64,000 nucleotides of DNA, taken from positions 1,263,001-1,327,000 of the forward strand of contig NZ_CP050699.1 in NCBI RefSeq assembly GCF_005116675.2, given 5' to 3'. The notes beneath the pieces were generated by a model that saw only the letters and a list, made by a program, of their open reading frames with translations, made no database searches and was not told the DNA's origin. Position numbers and translations under genes: made by a program. Below, in pieces: positions 703-8,493 of this stretch. Numbering within the stretch: the first letter of the stretch is position 1; every line of letters begins with the position of its first letter. The DNA comes from Desulfosediminicola ganghwensis. GTDB taxonomy: Bacteria; Desulfobacterota; Desulfobulbia; Desulfobulbales; Desulfocapsaceae.

Positions 703-1455
703 TTAAAAACCAAAGTCTTCGACGCCAATCTTCTCTTGTTTAAAAACTTTAGGCTTTTCTGCCTTTTCATGAATATCCATCCGGTCGATGTATATGGCGA
801 TTTTGCGTACCGGGCAGATCGACTCGCAACCACCGCAACCGATGCAAGCCTCTTTGTGAACTATCTCAGGCTTGGTAATACCCGGCTTATAGGGCACCAT
901 TTTAAGGGCGCCTGTGGGACAATGTTCAGCGCACGCCCCACAGGCCTTGTCGTCTTTTTTGACAATACACTCATCTATTACCAGCTTTGCAATGCCGATT
1001 CTGGTTACTTTCTTTTCTGCCAGGGACATTGTGCCAAGTGCCTTGGTCGGGCAGATCTCAATGCATTTTCGACATTGGTAGTCACAGAAGTGGTGGATTC
1101 CATATTTGAGTACCGGTTGCATGAATCCAGCGATACCGTTTTCAAGAAAAGCCGGTCGTAGTACTCCGGAAGGACATTGACTGACACAGAGTTGACAGGC
1201 AGTGCAGCTCCTGCGGAATGCCTTGAGGGATCCGGCACCGGGTGGAATGGGCGCAGAACCTTTACCTGATGCCGATATCGTTGGTGCATTGGGTGTATCA
1301 AGTAGATTCGGTGGGGTTGGTGGGGCTCCACCTTCCGCTGCTGTCGATAATCCTGGCAGGGGAAGTGTGCAGACGACAACAAGGCCGGTATGCATCAATT
1401 TAAGAAACTGCCTTCTTCCCATTTGAGCCGTCGTACTCATATCGATTGAACTCAT
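703..1455 (-). CDS. Tat-exported 4Fe-4S ferredoxin-type protein
   Basis: 250 residues. The N-terminus carries a twin-arginine motif (GRRQFLKL) followed by a hydrophobic stretch, so export as a folded Fe-S protein is likely. After a Pro-rich linker (about 45-75) come several Cys clusters: CTACQLCVSQCP, CDYQCRKCIEICP, CGACAEHCP and CIGCGGCESICP, enough for about four [4Fe-4S] clusters as in NapG/NrfC-like electron carriers. It overlaps the upstream membrane Fe-S gene by 4 nt (ATGA), so the two are translationally coupled. Role inferred: periplasmic electron transfer between the membrane Fe-S protein and an unknown acceptor. The partner enzyme is not identifiable here. Confidence 0.85.
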   Translation of the reverse strand: MSSIDMSTTAQMGRRQFLKLMHTGLVVVCTLPLPGLSTAAEGGAPPTPPNLLDTPNAPTISASGKGSAPIPPGAGSLKAFRRSCTACQLCVSQCPSGVLRPAFLENGIAGFMQPVLKYGIHHFCDYQCRKCIEICPTKALGTMSLAEKKVTRIGIAKLVIDECIVKKDDKACGACAEHCPTGALKMVPYKPGITKPEIVHKEACIGCGGCESICPVRKIAIYIDRMDIHEKAEKPKVFKQEKIGVEDFGF

Positions 1456-2291
1456 ACCGATTTTCTCTTTATGGGGGAGTTATAAGAAATTGCTTCATAA
1501 TTACAGACGGGCAGGCAGTTAAAGCAACAAACACAGTTACTGGAGTCCACCTGCTCTGTTTGGAGGGTGATTACCCCAGCTTTACAATGTTGCTCGCAAA
1601 GACCACAGGAAACGCATCTCTCATCATTTATGGTTACTCGAACAAGAGGTTTTATAGCAGCCAAACTCAGCACTGTGCCTACAGGACAAATGGTATTGCA
1701 CCAGAACCTTGGTCCATAAGCATAGAGAAAGTAACAAATAAGTGACAGTGAGAGCACTGCGACGAGAAGCACGGAAATCCCTGCAAAATGATAATCTTTG
1801 GCCACAACACTGTATATGCCGAACTGATTGAGCACAACAGAGAGCTGGTTATTGGCGAAGGTGAGTGGGGGGACTGCAAACGTCGTGGTCAAGCGCCCGA
1901 AAAGAGACCATGGATCAACAAGCAACAATGCCAGCGACGCCCCGGAAAATATCGATATAACGCATACGGTAAGGATGCTGTACCGTACTATCGCCGGGCC
2001 TTGGCTCGTGTTCTTGACCTTTTTCTTTTGGAACCGGGCCAGAATATCATGCAAGATACCGAGCGGGCAAAGAAAAGAACAGTACCAGCGTCCGAAAATC
2101 ACTGTAAACAAAGTGATTGCAATAACGATTGCAAAAGAACCCGCCATCAGGGCTGGAATGAATTGAATGCGACTGAGCAGGGAAGGATCAAACCCGTAAA
2201 TTTCGGAAAATGTCCCACCAACATATAAAAGCAGCAGTAGAAAAAAAGATCCGGCAAAGATTCGCCGGACCAATTGCAGAGTACGACCCAT
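1452..2291 (-). CDS. Membrane 4Fe-4S protein (NapH-like)
   Basis: 279 residues with about five hydrophobic segments (near residues 10-30, 45-70, 100-125, 165-190). It has the polyferredoxin signature CSFLCPLGILHD after the second helix and a second CNTICPVGTV motif, then two C-terminal cluster motifs (CVSCGLCEQHCK, CVCCFNCLPVC). This is the architecture of NapH/RdxA-type integral membrane ferredoxins that pass electrons from quinol to periplasmic carriers. It starts 10 nt after the DUF362 gene and overlaps the next Fe-S gene by 4 nt, giving a three-gene operon. Electron source and final acceptor are not visible in the sequence. Confidence 0.85.
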   Translation of the reverse strand: MGRTLQLVRRIFAGSFFLLLLLYVGGTFSEIYGFDPSLLSRIQFIPALMAGSFAIVIAITLFTVIFGRWYCSFLCPLGILHDILARFQKKKVKNTSQGPAIVRYSILTVCVISIFSGASLALLLVDPWSLFGRLTTTFAVPPLTFANNQLSVVLNQFGIYSVVAKDYHFAGISVLLVAVLSLSLICYFLYAYGPRFWCNTICPVGTVLSLAAIKPLVRVTINDERCVSCGLCEQHCKAGVITLQTEQVDSSNCVCCFNCLPVCNYEAISYNSPIKRKSV

Positions 2292-2301
2292 AACCGAATT
2301 G

Positions 2302-3228
2302 TTACAGTTTAACGCGCATGATATTTAAAGAAGCCAGGTCAGTTGTGCCAAGACCGCTCTCTTCCCCTTTCTGGATGTGGCTGACGTCGCTCACATCCAT
2401 TGGTCGTAGCTGGGAGAAAAACTTTGTAGCCGCCGTATCCACAGCAACGGGGTCAGATGAGGTGAACATTGCCCTGGTCTGAGCCACATCTTCAACACTG
2501 ATGCCGGATGGCCCGTTGCGCACCATTGTGCGAAAACCATCAACAATATTGAGCGTAGGCTTTTTTTCCCAGGTGCAGAGATCGGCAATACATTGTTGCA
2601 AACCGGATCTGTGGAAAATTCGCCTGTCCCAGACTATGCCCATATTGTTTTTCATGGCAATAGACATGCTCGCACCGCCGTGGTGTTTGAGGGTGGGAAC
2701 ATTGAACCAGACATCACTGTTAATCAGGGATTTATGGATCTTTGTCTCTTTGAGAACTTTACCTTTTGGTAGTGAAACCGATGTATAGTATCGTTCATTG
2801 TTGCCGGGAACCATGGTGCCACCATGGGACTCAACGGCCTCTTTAATGCCACTGAGTTCATAGCAGCTTTTCCACTCCTGACAGGTGTGGTCGAAAACTT
2901 CAACTCGACCAGCGCCAGCTTCAAAAGAGAGCTTAACCAGCTCACCAATAACTTCCGGGCTGGTATTGGCACCAAGTTCAGGTGTTTTTGCCCAGCCGAT
3001 ATTGGGCTTTATAACTACCCGGTCACCTTTCTTTATAAATGCCTCAATACCGCCAAGCTCCTGGACAGTCCGTTGCAGCATATCCACCGGGGAATTGCCA
3101 CCCAAGACCGCTACGAGATCCTTGCCATTTTCTGCGAAGGCCTGTCGTACCCAGAGGGGTAAGCCAAAATCAAGTGAGGTTGCTGCTGTTACCACCATTC
3201 CTGTCTTAATGAAATCACGCCTGTCCAT
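2302..3228 (-). CDS. DUF362 domain protein with Tat signal
   Basis: 308 residues from the ATG at 3226-3228. An earlier in-frame TTG at 3240 is rejected because the ribosome-binding site GGAGGTGA lies between the two codons at ideal spacing from the ATG. The N-terminus MDRRDFIKTG is a twin-arginine signal followed by a hydrophobic core ending near AFA. The body has DUF362 hallmarks: VVIKPNIGW, the segment ending NVPTLKHHGGASMSIAMKN, and NIVDGF. DUF362 proteins often sit beside ferredoxins; their reaction is poorly defined. First gene of the operon with the two Fe-S proteins downstream. Confidence 0.85.
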   Translation of the reverse strand: MDRRDFIKTGMVVTAATSLDFGLPLWVRQAFAENGKDLVAVLGGNSPVDMLQRTVQELGGIEAFIKKGDRVVIKPNIGWAKTPELGANTSPEVIGELVKLSFEAGAGRVEVFDHTCQEWKSCYELSGIKEAVESHGGTMVPGNNERYYTSVSLPKGKVLKETKIHKSLINSDVWFNVPTLKHHGGASMSIAMKNNMGIVWDRRIFHRSGLQQCIADLCTWEKKPTLNIVDGFRTMVRNGPSGISVEDVAQTRAMFTSSDPVAVDTAATKFFSQLRPMDVSDVSHIQKGEESGLGTTDLASLNIMRVKL

Positions 3229-3499
3229 ACTCACCTCCAATTGTCTTGTGGCAGCCAGTGTAGCATGTCTGAAAAGTATACCCGCTTTTTATAAAAATCG
3301 CCGAACCGATCGGGTGTCAATTAAAATGACGGCCATACAATATGATGCGGTCACTGGGATTATGCGGATTGTGGTAGGTTATTTCTGGAGTTCAGAGGAG
3401 GGCAGTGCCCACGCATATAGTGTCAGGAAGTTGAGCCGACACGAGATTGCCAATACAATCATCGGTGGTAGGCCTATTGCGGCAGGTTACTGACCCCTT

Positions 3500-3745
3500 G
3501 TGGATCTGGAGGCTGTGTACAGTCGCATACTGGATGGTAAGATACTCACCCTGGCTCCTTCGGGTTGGACCTGTAAAAACACCTTCCTGTTATATGACAA
3601 AGAGACTATGAGCCTCTGGTGCCCTGAACGTAAAGGATTACGCGGTATCAGCGGTGAACACTACGGCCAATATCTGCCTCTGATCGAGTCGGAAGACACC
3701 AATTGGCAGGAGTGGGTTGAGAAACACCTGATTCAAAACTGTTAA
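3500..3745 (+). CDS. Small hypothetical protein
   Basis: 81 codons from a GTG start. The product is acidic with four Trp and three Cys, reads like a folded small protein (GWTCKNTFLLYDKETMSLWC), and is not a shadow of a stronger frame. No domain is recognised. There is no good ribosome-binding site immediately upstream (only GACCCC near -8), which weakens the case. It lies between the divergent DUF362 operon and a decayed response-regulator fragment, so it could itself be a leftover. Confidence 0.4.
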   Translation: MDLEAVYSRILDGKILTLAPSGWTCKNTFLLYDKETMSLWCPERKGLRGISGEHYGQYLPLIESEDTNWQEWVEKHLIQNC

Positions 3746-3851
3746 AGTGATTGCCGGGCATTTGTTTAACAAGGATTTCCTAATGACTGTCTTGATCGCT
3801 GGCTGTTCCTGGTTGAGCGGGAGAGTGTTTTAACAACCTCGTCCAGCCAGG

Positions 3852-4103
3852 ATGAGCCGCAATTCGTGCTTGATAAATATAGATCTTCTACTGACCGATG
3901 TGATTATGCCTGGTATGAACGGCAGGGAGTTAGCGGATGGATTCAAGGAAATAAATCCGAACCTGAAATGTATGTTTATGTCAGGGTATACCGTCAGCGG
4001 CGTCACTCACCCGAATATACTGGGCCCGGAGGTGAATTTCCTGCAAAAGCCGATTAGCAATAGAAAGCTTGCTCCGGGGATCAGGGAATCCCAGGATAGC
4101 TGA
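3852..4103 (+). pseudogene. Response-regulator receiver remnant
   Basis: The reading frame gives IDLLLTDVIMPGMNGRELAD, then LKCMFMSGYT and EVNFLQKPIS. These are the phospho-acceptor Asp region, the conserved Thr/Ser region and the KP motif of a CheY-like receiver, typical of the C-terminal receiver of hybrid histidine kinases. The first ~45 residues of the domain (including the acidic DD pair) and any kinase part are absent upstream, and the last helix is truncated. No ribosome-binding site was found at the first ATG. Most likely the tail of a decayed hybrid kinase. Confidence 0.7.
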
Positions 4104-4167
4104 AGCACCAGTTCGTTTAAGCGAGGGAGTTCATGGTGATCGCCGCCTGCAAGTATGCAATTGATTA

Positions 4168-4206
4168 GCCTGCAAAATACCAAACACTTTGTGGTATTTT
4201 TCAGGC
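4168..4206. terminator. Bidirectional intrinsic terminator
   Basis: Inverted repeat of 15-nt arms (4168-4182 and 4192-4206, one mismatch, 9-nt loop) containing AAAATACCA/TGGTATTTT. The arms give T-tracts on both strands. It lies just past the stop of the minus-strand flavoprotein gene (4224) and the plus-strand receiver remnant. Confidence 0.75.
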
Positions 4207-4223
4207 CTTTTGCATTTACGTTT

Positions 4224-4874
4224 CTATGGGGTAAGGGTTATCGCTTTGGCCAGGTTTTCCCCAGCCTGGATGACTTTGTCCAGTTGTTCCTGATCGTTTT
4301 TTACCTTGCCCCGGTGAAATATCCTGAAGATTGCTATCTCATCTACTATTTCATAACCCAGGGCTTGAAGCGGCATACGCATCGCCTCCAGGGTAAATCC
4401 CATATCCTTTTTATTTTCCTGTTCACAAATAGCGACAATGACAGCTTTACGATTTTGTTCTGCCAGATTGCTGGACCAGGCTCTGGGAATGGTATCCTGA
4501 AAGTTGTATAAGCAGTATAGCCTGTCAATGAAAGCCTTCATCCAGGCGGTGATGTTGTAGTTGTGAGTAGGGCAGGCCAGCACAAGCCCCTTGGATGAAA
4601 GCAGCGGTTGATACAGCATCGACATACCATCGAGAAGTCCTGTACAGATCTTATCCTTCCGGCACATCTCACAACCGATACAACCTTGAAATTGGATATC
4701 CCTGAGTTGATACGATTCAGATTGCACTCCCTGCCGGGAGGAACCTTTGAGGGCATTTTTCAACAGTATGTCTGAGTTGCCGTTTCGTCGGGGACTACCG
4801 CCGATGCCGAGAATCTTATTATCTGGTGGGGTGGAGGTCGAAAGCTCTTTAAGCATGGCGTGTATTGAATTCAT
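4224..4874 (-). CDS. Iron-sulfur flavoprotein (NADPH-dependent FMN reductase family)
   Basis: 216 residues. After a short N-terminal extension the flavodoxin-like fold begins with ILGIGGSPRRNGNSD, the FMN-phosphate-binding loop. Next comes CIGCEMCRKDKIC, the compact CX2CX2CX5C motif of iron-sulfur flavoproteins, which binds one [4Fe-4S] cluster. CPTHNYNITAWMKAFIDRL follows, the usual second FMN contact. Proteins of this family pass electrons between ferredoxins and small acceptors in anaerobes. Monocistronic, with a terminator at its 3' end. The start is uncertain because no strong ribosome-binding site precedes 4874; an ATG at 4856 is an alternative. Confidence 0.85.
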   Translation of the reverse strand: MNSIHAMLKELSTSTPPDNKILGIGGSPRRNGNSDILLKNALKGSSRQGVQSESYQLRDIQFQGCIGCEMCRKDKICTGLLDGMSMLYQPLLSSKGLVLACPTHNYNITAWMKAFIDRLYCLYNFQDTIPRAWSSNLAEQNRKAVIVAICEQENKKDMGFTLEAMRMPLQALGYEIVDEIAIFRIFHRGKVKNDQEQLDKVIQAGENLAKAITLTP

Positions 4875-5549
4875 AGAGAAGCCTTGAAGACGAATTGGGC
4901 TGGTGAATCAGGGGAATTGAGAATGAGGTACACACTGGGCGATACAGTTGCAATGTATTCTGCTTGAAAGGTACATCAGAACGCAGTTGATGGTAATTGA
5001 ATCGCCAAGTGGATCAATTTGAAATCATAGCAGAGAGTAGTGCCACCCCTATTTTTGTTTCAGCAGTCATGTGCCGGGAAATCGGTCAGCGGTATCAATA
5101 TGCCACTGCAGAATAGCATAGTGCCTGACAAGTATGTGCTGGACTAAAGTGTCTGGCCGTTGTAGAAAAATATATGTAATAACGATTTTTTGTCTGGTAC
5201 TTTGTGGGGTTTTCGATGGAGGTGAATATGCAATCTCCGCTTGAAGGCAGACCACTAAGTTATCCTGCCCGGTTGTCTGCCCGAGTACAGGCTGTAAGAC
5301 AAAGTCCGGGATACATGCGCCTGACGGTTGGCACGGGTCTTTTTACCGGTGTCGGGCAGGGGACGAACCATTCTGCCTTCTCCACGAATTTCAGTAAGAC
5401 CTCCTCTCAATTATGTTTCTTCACCCTTCAATTACAAGGGGTTCCGCGTCGGTCAATTGCCGCTGGAGTCATTAAGATCATCTGCTGCAGTACTAAGAAC
5501 GCATCTGGCAAAAAGCTGTTCAACTTTCACTTCAACCGCAGGAGGAAGT
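4875..5549. other. Intergenic, no gene recognised
   Basis: 675 bases upstream of the multiheme cytochrome. Long open frames cross it on the plus strand (from 5204 and 5328), but their translations are basic, low in structure and lack ribosome-binding sites, so they are taken as non-coding extensions. A TGGCACG string at 5333-5339 resembles a sigma-54 -24 element, but the matching GC at -12 is absent. Confidence 0.45.
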
Positions 5550-6893
5550 ATGAAAATTGCTTTTAAAACAATTGTTGTAGTTTTCGCTGTGGTGGCATTT
5601 GCACCATTCGGCGTATATGGGGCCGGGGGCCCCAGGCCCGAACCTCCTCCAAAGGCGAAAACTATCGCCGAGCTGGCAGAGCGTTATGATTCGGAGAGAT
5701 GTGCCGACTGCCATGAAGATGTCCATGACGAATGGTCTGAGTCGCTCCACTCGAAATCTATTCTGGGTTCTCCGCGTACAGCGCCAACTATCATCACTGC
5801 CATCGAAAAGGGGTTAAAGCGTTTCCCGTATTCGGGTGTGAAAGAAGATTCTGATATCACGGTGGAACATCTGATGATGTGCATGAAATGTCATCTTCCC
5901 CAACTCGATGAGGCAACAGATGACGTTGCTCGTGAGATCGTCGCTACCATCAGGGGTTGGCAGCAGGCATACAGGGATGGAGATGAAGACAAGGCAGAAG
6001 AACTGGAAGAGACAATCGCCAGCCTGAATATCGGTTGCATGGTTTGCCATAACAAGGTGGCAATCATTCACAAATATGCAGATGGCTACCCCCAGCCGGA
6101 TACGGTATACGGTGCTCAGGAAGGTGAGCATGAGGACGAGGAATATCAAAAGATGGCAGAGGCTCCGGCACTTGGCGAGTCTATCTTCTGTGGGCAATGT
6201 CATGGTCAGGGGCCGAACTTCGAGTTGGACCATCCCTCGCAGTGCGCCACCGCCTATGGCAGTTATCTTTTTGCCTATGCAGCCCATGGAGGCTCCGAGT
6301 CGTGCCAGGAGTGCCATATACACAAGTCTGAGCTTGGGCATAACATGCAGTCGTATCGTAATGATGCCATGATCGAGATGGCGCTCGATGTCCGCGTCGA
6401 GGGCCGGTCGTTATTCTGGCGCAAAAACAAGACAGAGGGTGTATTGCCTATCGGTATTATCGATGTTGAGATCTACAATAAGACGGGACATGGCGTCCCG
6501 GATGGCTGACCCACCCCGAACCGGCTGGTCCTGGATGTGACCGCGAAAACAATGGATGACGAGGTGGTGTTTAACGAGCAGAGAATTTACATGCCATTCC
6601 CAGGTCGTTTTGGCAGGGGCAAGGAGATGGGCAGAGGGCCCTACGAGAAGAGTGGGTTGCTTAGGGAAACAAGCATTCCGCCGCTTGCCAGGGTGCATGA
6701 AACATTTGAAATCACCTACCCATTTGAAGATGTCGCTAAGGGCGATTCCACCCGCAGAGAGTTGGTAAATGACGAACTGAAAGTCTCTGTGGTGCTGTGG
6801 TATGTGCCCTTTGGCGAGTTTGACGGTAATGAAGTCGCTTTTTTTGAAGAAGAGAGAACGCTCGACCTGAAGACCGAGTGGGTCTGGAGATAA
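5550..6893 (+). CDS. extKL: Five-heme c-type cytochrome with in-frame UGA (probable selenoprotein, ExtKL type)
   Basis: ATG at 5550 follows AGGAGG. Residues 1-24 form a signal peptide. Five CXXCH heme motifs start at C51, C111, C163, C214 and C252, so this is a periplasmic or cell-surface multiheme cytochrome. Codon 320 is TGA (6507-6509) inside GHGVPDG-x-PTPNRLVL. The same frame stays open for a further 127 codons to TAA at 6891-6893, with protein-like sequence and no new start or ribosome-binding site near 6537. A small hairpin with GG in its loop lies 18-19 nt past the TGA, the spacing used by bacterial SECIS elements. I therefore call one 447-residue protein with selenocysteine at 320. 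The family name is recalled from the Geobacter ext electron-conduit genes and is the least certain part. The alternative is a pseudogene split by a nonsense mutation. Confidence 0.75.
6510..6539 (+). promoter_or_regulatory. SECIS-like hairpin downstream of UGA codon
   Basis: Arms CCGG (6521-6524) and CTGG (6531-6534) enclose the loop CUGGUC, with an outer CAC/GUG pair (6512-6514 with 6537-6539). The loop GG falls 18-19 nt after the UGA, almost the same distance as in the E. coli formate dehydrogenase SECIS. The stem is short (4 bp including one G-U, then 3 bp), so the call depends on position and context. Confidence 0.55.
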
Positions 6894-7032
6894 GGGAGGC
6901 TTGAGCTATTCGATGATCCGGCCCGTGCGTACAGTCGTGAACTGCTACGTGCGGGTTGCAGTGCTGGTACAGAGCTTATTTGTGAGATAACGTTCTATCG
7001 GTTCCCCAAAATTGAAGAAAAGGGGGCGTTAC

Positions 7033-7479
7033 ATGAGAATTCTCATCGCGTGTGTTCTGTTGGTGCAGGCTGCTGTGTGTTTCGCGACTGAAGATTGCCC
7101 AAATCATGACGCATTCAGGGAACAAGGTTGGGTAATCCATGATAAGGAAGAGTTCAATCAGATACTCACCCAGCGTCTGGAGGACTTTTTACCACAGGTG
7201 GGTCAAGACCTGGTCCTCGATCAGGATGAGTACTATAAATCATGTTATTGCTATGATGACTACCTGATAATGCAGATCGTTATTTACGACCGGCTTTCAA
7301 CCTGTCGGGATGAGATGTGGGGCGATGTGGCCTTTGCCCTGACTGGTAATTTCGACGGAGATTACGTTGAACTGCGCTGGTATGATCCGGTGTCGAAAGA
7401 AAAACATATTGTGTGCAACCCAGATTATGTGTGCTGTGTAACCACCAAGGTGCCTCTGGCGGTGAATACTATTTTTTAG
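7033..7479 (+). CDS. Small secreted Cys-rich protein, unknown function
   Basis: 148 residues from ATG 7033, preceded by AGGGGG. The upstream in-frame TTG at 7012 has no ribosome-binding site. Residues 1-17 (MRILIACVLLVQAAVCF) form a signal peptide. The mature part is acidic with Cys pairs, including SCYCYDDY and CNPDYVCC, suggesting disulfides in the periplasm. It does not carry CXXCH, so it is not a cytochrome. It lies 140 nt after the UGA-containing cytochrome on the same strand and may be co-expressed with it. No family recognised. Confidence 0.6.
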   Translation: MRILIACVLLVQAAVCFATEDCPNHDAFREQGWVIHDKEEFNQILTQRLEDFLPQVGQDLVLDQDEYYKSCYCYDDYLIMQIVIYDRLSTCRDEMWGDVAFALTGNFDGDYVELRWYDPVSKEKHIVCNPDYVCCVTTKVPLAVNTIF

Positions 7480-7596
7480 GTTCGGCTCTGGGCGCACTTG
7501 CATTAGTAGGAAAACGGCACCAGCTGGACTCGCAGGGGGATGTGTCAAACCAGTACTATTGATCCCCGCCGCCTTTACTCGACCCATTCAGCATTT

Positions 7597-8493
7597 TCAG
7601 CCAATGGGGGCAATATAGTAGCGGCCGGAGACGCCCTCAATATCATGATGATAATAGAAACATTCGGGATCGGCCCCTTCAACAGCTTCTATGAGTTGGG
7701 GTAATTCTTCGTGGGTGATAATGGTTCTTACCATCTTGAATGATTCCCCGCTGCGACCGCCCAGCCCGGGTTGTACTGTATAGGTACGATGGTCGAGGGT
7801 GGAGGTGATCGTTTCTCCGACAATTTCGAACTTCCGGGTTATTATCGCGACCATTATGATCTTAAATTTTCGATAGAGATTATTCAGCGTCTGGGTAGAA
7901 ATGAAAATGTAAATACAGGTGTACATCAGCGTGTTTATAGCGGCTTCGAAGTTGCCGTTTTTCATGAAATCCATGAGCAAACCGAAGCTGGTCGAGCCGA
8001 TAGCTGCAAAAACGGCGATTGAGCCGACGGGTTTTAAATACTTCATGGCAAAGTAGGCGCCCAGTATATCTTCGTCACCCGTTGAGCCCCGCCTTTGGAA
8101 GGCAATTGCCTTTGCCACACCAGCCAGGAGACCACCAAATATGACGAGTATGATGCGCTCATTCTGAGGTTCCGGTTCCGCGAATTGTAATTCAGGCAGG
8201 AAGGCTAAAAAGAGTACAACGGTTATAACGATAATGAGTGAGCGCGTGGCAAACATGGAGCTGACTCGAAGAAACGCGAAAATCAGTAAAATGAGTTGAA
8301 ATACTAGGTATAAGGCGATGAATAACCAGTAACTGTCGAAATAATAGGAGAGAGCGGAGGCGACTCCTTCAGTGCCTGTCAAAATCACTTTTGAGGGTAA
8401 TACGAAGTACTTCAAGGCGATAGCGTACAAGGTGCCGGCACCGATAATCATCGAATAATCAACCAGACACTGTTTGATTGTTTTAAGTTTCAT
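7597..8493 (-). CDS. YitT-family membrane protein (DUF161/DUF2179)
   Basis: 298 residues. About five transmembrane segments occupy residues 10-185, with the family motif ILTGTEGVASALSYY near residue 38 and QRRGSTGDEDILG near 133. The cytoplasmic C-terminus (from about 200) is the DUF2179 domain, ending RTIITHEELPQLIEAVEG and YYHHDIEGV. Function in the family is unknown; transport or signalling is assumed. Starts with ATG after a modest ribosome-binding region. Transcribed alone and convergent with the secreted-protein gene at 7033. Confidence 0.85.
   Translation of the reverse strand: MKLKTIKQCLVDYSMIIGAGTLYAIALKYFVLPSKVILTGTEGVASALSYYFDSYWLFIALYLVFQLILLIFAFLRVSSMFATRSLIIVITVVLFLAFLPELQFAEPEPQNERIILVIFGGLLAGVAKAIAFQRRGSTGDEDILGAYFAMKYLKPVGSIAVFAAIGSTSFGLLMDFMKNGNFEAAINTLMYTCIYIFISTQTLNNLYRKFKIIMVAIITRKFEIVGETITSTLDHRTYTVQPGLGGRSGESFKMVRTIITHEELPQLIEAVEGADPECFYYHHDIEGVSGRYYIAPIG

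Follow-up and report, generated by a model that had tools for sequence, protein, structure and literature searches.

GSU2937 and GSU2936 of Geobacter sulfurreducens were together proposed as a possible selenoprotein in 2007, in a report whose passages on the pair state that no SECIS and no homologue without selenocysteine (Sec) was found, and which left a conserved operon open (PMC1914089). The name ExtKL followed in 2018, for a protein with five hemes and a predicted Sec (excerpts of PMC5877670 and PMC6148476). In these excerpts PMC5877670 places the gene in extHIJKLMNOPQS, treats ExtKL as a proposed selenoprotein, makes use of an anti-ExtKL antibody, mentions a preliminary study that linked ExtKL to selenite reduction, and reports impaired reduction of selenite and tellurite when ExtI is lost. 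The family, NF040886, stands among the prokaryotic selenoprotein families in the excerpted portion of a 2026 review (PMC13188914). A 2025 paper, in its passages on ExtKL, groups the protein with the pentaheme cytochromes of cable bacteria and counts it among cytochromes with pentacoordinated hemes (PMC11976967); it describes ExtKL as a two-gene structure, and the words selenocysteine and selenoprotein are absent from its text. In the PDB, entries 9wt8 to 9wtc hold a homologue named 'multiheme cytochrome c selenoprotein (MccSep)', including a 'MccSep U325A' mutant. Our literature search returned no paper describing MccSep, and we compare it here by PDB chain names and sequences only.

The gene that we describe, extKL, lies at positions 5550 to 6893 on the forward strand of a 64,000-nt stretch of the Desulfosediminicola ganghwensis genome, hereafter the window. 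It is best explained as encoding an exported five-heme protein of the ExtKL family whose in-frame UGA is translated as Sec through SelB, tRNA-Sec and a downstream hairpin, and to this reading as a whole we assign a probability of about 0.94. The data support it by a single frame through the UGA, conservation of Sec or Cys only at the site, the Sec machinery other than selA, conservation of the hairpin and homology to a selenoprotein in the PDB; the function of the Sec in ExtKL we infer. extKL is a real selenoprotein gene and a clear genomic example of Sec in a multiheme cytochrome. It is also largely known, since its family is already catalogued and homologue structures have been solved. An initial sequence-only reading had correctly suggested the name ExtKL and supposed that this member might be undescribed, which does not hold for a family proposed in 2007, named in 2018, listed in a review in 2026 and represented by a homologue with PDB entries. 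Within the limits of our literature search, novelty is confined at most to three items: the Cys homologues, the pair of SECIS registers and the set of invariant residues that accompany the Sec. The first two are modest additions, both missing from the excerpted 2007 report (PMC1914089).

Reading frame and family membership

The extKL frame comprises 447 residues and a stop, and its only internal stop is the TGA at 6507 to 6509 on the forward strand (residue 320), which the codon counts of the family and the alignment with PDB 9wt8 and 9wt9 identify as a Sec codon. An AGGAGG stretch resembling a ribosome-binding site immediately precedes the ATG, and the product begins with a signal-peptide-like stretch. 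All five CXXCH heme-binding motifs of the translation (5700 to 6317, forward strand; first Cys at residues 51, 111, 163, 214 and 252) come before the TGA. Past the TGA the product reads on as PTPNRLVLDVTAK. The sequence-only reading had claimed that there was neither a frameshift nor a new start; the frame is indeed single and broken by the TGA alone, but a GTG at 6537, 3′ of the TGA, opens an ORF of 118 aa.

With U written as C, the product matches the NCBIfam profile NF040886, 'multiheme c-type cytochrome (seleno)protein ExtKL', at 574.7 bits, against a curated cut-off of 250 bits. The match covers positions 4 to 423 of the 423 in the profile and keeps its register across the TGA, residues 7 to 319 corresponding to profile positions 4 to 314 and the part after the TGA to positions 316 to 423. 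Searched alone, the two halves score 432.8 bits (before the TGA) and 116.6 bits (after it). The earlier claim of a five-heme cytochrome frame that reads through an in-frame TGA was thereby borne out, as the TGA is the sole interruption and both halves match in register. Pfam matched the cytochrome part only, with Cytochrome_C7 as the best family, and gave no match to the product after the TGA. A score above the cut-off, five CXXCH motifs and a Sec in a PDG-U motif are all found in the window copy, and with the same Sec position the protein shows no difference of substance from the ExtKL family. The G. sulfurreducens protein has likewise been named as a five-heme selenoprotein candidate (excerpts of PMC1914089, PMC5877670 and PMC6148476).

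Based on these matches and on those to MccSep in the PDB (E 4e-150 for 9wt8 and 2e-150 for 9wt9), we annotate the product as a secreted five-heme c-type cytochrome selenoprotein. The MccSep chains (9wt8, 9wt9, 9wta, 9wtb and 9wtc) align over residues 32 to 433 of the window protein, Sec to Sec. Residue 320 falls on an X in 9wt8 and on the Ala of the U325A mutant in 9wt9.

The codon at position 320 and the selenocysteine machinery

A class-wide search of 257 genomes yielded some match in 185 and a match over the cut-off in 96. The 107 family places considered below are the over-cut-off rows, of which the window copy and its paralogue are two; lower-scoring rows were left out, and L133, with a frame break upstream, and L137, with an extra in-frame TAG, were kept. 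At position 320 the codon is TGA in 100 of the 107 places (window copy and paralogue included) and TGT or TGC, for Cys, in the remaining seven, counts that are not independent events because the loci are related by descent. All 107 places therefore carry U or Cys at this position, as the sequence-only reading had predicted for a selenoprotein family. The Q, W or R codon that it had named as contrary evidence was looked for and found in none of the 107, and neither was TAA or TAG. The seven Cys homologues (L056 to L062) all belong to one genus, and relatives of the same class carry Sec. We note that two of the genomes with Cys homologues, G035 and G051, hold a Sec copy too.

The same codon was scored in the best 80 of 272 loci from the genome_contigs search. 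TGA stands at position 320 in 79 of them and L174 could not be scored; this set overlaps the 107 places, and one of its two search patterns demands a Cys codon at 320. Judged by record titles, on which our taxon words for these relatives rest, the 80 loci include Desulfuromonadales, Nitrospirae, Thermodesulfobacteriaceae and Myxococcales. The nearest named relatives of the extKL gene are from Desulfobulbaceae, Desulfopila, Desulforhopalus and Desulfofustis.

This distribution bears on the possibility that the stop is a nonsense mutation or a sequencing error, the affected codon being one for Cys or another residue, in either a pseudogene or a correct gene. Nothing beyond the stop itself speaks for such an event, and the same TGA recurs in 100 of 107 family places across many genera as well as in the genome's own paralogue, which is only 34% identical. 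The downstream half moreover still matches NF040886 when searched alone. We consider this explanation scarcely credible.

The other way to dispense with Sec is to take extK and extL as two genes of a conserved operon, the first stopping at the UGA and the second restarting at GTG 6537. The passages of PMC1914089 name this possibility and those of PMC11976967 give a two-gene structure; the GTG opens the 118-aa ORF, and the restart codon is GTG in 99 of the 100 Sec loci. We compared the nine codons from the TGA to this GTG among 51 PTPNR-type loci (37 distinct) and obtained a pS of 0.35 versus a pN of 0.08, whereas pS was below pN for the same stretch in two shifted frames. These values point to selection at the protein level, indicating that the stretch is translated in the extKL frame, which a restart at the GTG would not accomplish. 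Further, the motif keeps a single frame across the site in 107/107 places, with TGA or a Cys codon and never TAA or TAG, and the solved homologue is a single chain through the site. Two separate genes are therefore very unlikely.

The genome searched for Sec machinery is one contig of 5.65 Mb, 97.9% complete. It contains a tRNA-Sec gene (RF01852, 75.4 bits, anticodon UCA), selB (384.7 bits; cut-off 242.25) and two selD genes over the cut-off, both of them interrupted in frame by a TGA at residue 10 or 11 of their matching stretch. Both of these selD genes with a TGA near the start (L019 and L020) belong to one genome. No match was obtained in this genome for SepSecS, nor for selA with TIGR00474 or PF03841. 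The sequence-only reading had called for selA, selB, selC and selD, and the last three are present.

A congener (same genus) has its selA flanked by an rRNA operon and a gene for a TPR protein. The matching TPR gene is present in our genome (45% identical), and the stretch adjoining it, where the congener keeps selA, reads N in the searched sequence, so that the absence of selA cannot be claimed. We accordingly rejected the notion of a genome without selA, and selA is likely present. Among the 93 family genomes, 72 have a selA match, which is over the cut-off in 70. We also observed selA no more than about 700 bases from the start of a contig in more than 20 of the genome places searched (compare L121); its position beside an rRNA operon in one single-contig congener would explain such broken assemblies.

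Read-through by another tRNA, either as general UGA suppression or with a different amino acid, could draw on the failure to see selA in the searched sequence, although the syntenic stretch is the one that reads N. Arrayed against it are the genes for tRNA-Sec, SelB and the TGA-bearing selD, a conserved hairpin of the bSECIS kind, Cys as the replacing residue in relatives and a homologous PDB chain that is named a selenoprotein with U325, and we hold it to be extremely unlikely. On the evidence against each, nonsense mutation, sequencing error, the two-gene operon and general suppression were all rejected. The selenoprotein reading is supported by the 100 U and seven Cys, by tRNA-Sec, selB and selD and by the MccSep homologue.

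Two registers of the putative SECIS hairpin

We place a putative bacterial SECIS hairpin at 6524 to 6544 on the forward strand (GC-U-GGUCC / UGGAU apical loop / G-U-GACC-GC). The conserved hairpin pairs GC-U-GGUC (6524 to 6530) with GACCGC (6539 to 6544) and exposes a GG (6533 to 6534) in the apical loop, which comes 22 nt after the UGA. Its four core pairs are formed in 93 of the 100 Sec loci. When synonymous codons were redrawn according to the usage of the gene concerned, the mean was 14.7 loci and the maximum 25 (300 draws), and a repeat with 500 draws gave a mean of 15.6 and a maximum of 27. With the partner strand displaced by 1 to 6 nt in either direction, none of the Sec loci forms the core stem. 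In L074 one core pair has changed on both sides, G-C having become A-T, and two genome_contigs loci have A-T at this same pair. The seven Sec loci of the GGCA type break the core stem as drawn. The stem is formed in 0/7 Cys loci (null 0.0), which is no clean contrast because the amino acids under the hairpin differ too.

Folded alone, the window hairpin is unremarkable (z of +0.61 and −0.68 against shuffles), and RNAalifold returned no consensus structure on the 69 distinct sequences among the 100 Sec loci. It is only through the comparison across relatives that the window hairpin appears to go beyond chance.

The sequence-only reading had also seen a hairpin just past the UGA, which agrees with the conservation in 93/100 Sec loci, and had put the GG at 18 to 19 nt past the UGA in its loop, which does not. 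That GG (6527 to 6528) lies in the stem of the conserved hairpin. A hairpin with the GG at 18 to 19 in the loop can be drawn in the window, and its four pairs are formed in 33/100 Sec loci (null 9.7, maximum 20); compared with 93/100 for the conserved hairpin, this makes it the weaker candidate in the window's class.

The GG at 18 to 19 does sit in the loop in a second group of relatives. Of the 79 scored genome_contigs loci, 18 (9 distinct 30-mers) encode Ser nine codons past the TGA, with titles that include Desulfuromonas, Desulfuromusa, Geotalea and Geomobilimonas (L184, L186-L188, L190, L191, L194-L197, L199, L203, L209-L211, L217, L219 and L220). The hairpin of this Ser type, ACCGAC/UGGUUCU/GUCGGU, has the GG in its loop in all 18, and its six pairs are formed in 18/18 compared to a null of 0.52 and a maximum of 4 (500 draws). 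The Arg codon within it is CGA in 17/18, and elsewhere in the same genes CGA accounts for 9 of 248 Arg codons. The 18 loci were chosen by amino acid, and a choice by nucleotides, using part of the stem, gave the identical 18.

Geobacter-like relatives (e.g., L196 and L197) thus use the other SECIS register, unlike the window copy, and MccSep, whose ninth residue past the Sec is Ser (LVLSV), is of the same type as these 18 loci. Both registers fit the bSECIS rules as given in the excerpts of PMC13188914, which describe an apical loop of 3 to 9 nt with G in its first two positions, an upper stem of 4 to 16 bp and a loop 16 to 37 nt from the UGA. Together, the seven Cys homologues and the two conserved hairpin registers answer both doubts raised in the excerpted 2007 report, the missing SECIS and the missing non-Sec homologue (PMC1914089).

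Conserved residues, proposed role and gene neighborhood

In 146 distinct homologues, four of the CXXCH motifs are invariant and the first is present in 144. H67, H264, H314, C232 and residue 320 are invariant as well; apart from the initiator Met, they and M360 are the only His, Cys or Met residues outside the CXXCH motifs with more than 85% conservation. As only three such His are invariant, some of the five hemes must lack an invariant distal His.

In an AlphaFold model (Cys in place of Sec, 30 sequences, mean pLDDT 71), the heme domain is helical and a beta sandwich comes after it; residue 320 lies in the loop that follows the strand formed by residues 297 to 310. The best fold match of the model is the pentaheme cytochrome c552 of Thermochromatium tepidum (PDB 5ze8; E 4.4e-09, TM 0.45-0.50), which is a weak sequence match too, with 18% identity in the fold alignment, and is not called a selenoprotein in its listing. 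9wt8 is absent among the 50 fold matches listed for the model (fold library to 8 April 2026).

Our best explanation runs as follows. SelB and tRNA-Sec decode the UGA at 6507 to 6509 as Sec, guided by the hairpin 15 to 35 nt downstream. The exported product binds five hemes c within its N-terminal two thirds, and a beta-sandwich (Ig-like) domain with the GHxxPDG-Sec loop forms its end. A heme may be ligated by the invariant His314, which precedes the Sec by six residues, and Sec320 may then sit next to a heme whose site is open or exchangeable, perhaps forming a pair with the invariant Cys232. The protein could carry electrons out of the periplasmic pool of cytochromes and onto a small acceptor (selenite or tellurite, for example), or take part in extracellular electron transfer.

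A more specific hypothesis joins these elements, and we put it forward tentatively, as a possibility that we ourselves doubt. ExtKL proteins would be Sec-dependent heme enzymes that carry out the reductase step in periplasmic reduction of selenium and tellurium (or metals), with Sec and Cys232 serving as a redox pair, or as an axial ligand, at a heme that lacks a conserved distal His. The SECIS would have moved within the same codons, from a loop at nt 17 to 23 (Ser type, Geobacter-like) to one at nt 23 to 27 (window type) or the reverse, with the Sec unmoved. As Cys forms, Sec forms and a U325A structure all exist, one can test directly what a selenol does next to hemes in anaerobic electron transfer.

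In the window, extKL stands apart from any ext-like cluster; the extHIJKL-like placement described for Geobacter, where the excerpts of PMC5877670 put ExtKL in extHIJKLMNOPQS, is not found here, and it is not a defining feature of NF040886. The link to selenite reduction is therefore carried over from another organism. On one side extKL is flanked by genes for NapH- and NapG-like ferredoxins, a DUF362 protein and a protein of the FMN-reductase family, and on the other by genes for a small secreted protein without a family and a YitT-family protein. By family matches, the neighbors tested from 703 to 8493 include neither a cytochrome nor a porin. We note that the genes for the NapH-like and NapG-like ferredoxin proteins and the DUF362 protein, which has a TAT signal, stand in a row on the minus strand (703 to 3240) and may form a redox operon.

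The small secreted protein, encoded downstream of extKL at 7033 to 7479 on the forward strand, is Cys-rich and has no Pfam or NCBIfam match. Five other loci among the 82 compared (window included) have a relative of it, 50-56% identical, downstream of extKL, and upon clustering of neighbors its gene was the sole shared one near the window copy.

The second ExtKL copy of this genome lies outside the window (L118:9104-10342) and is of a PDG-U-LWS subtype. It is flanked on one side by ABC-exporter-like genes, as judged from translations only, and on the other by two genes, one for a protein with a rhodanese domain and one whose product weakly matches Lcl_C. L137, an ExtKL-paralogue gene, has an in-frame TAG besides its Sec TGA and is perhaps decaying or affected by a sequence error.
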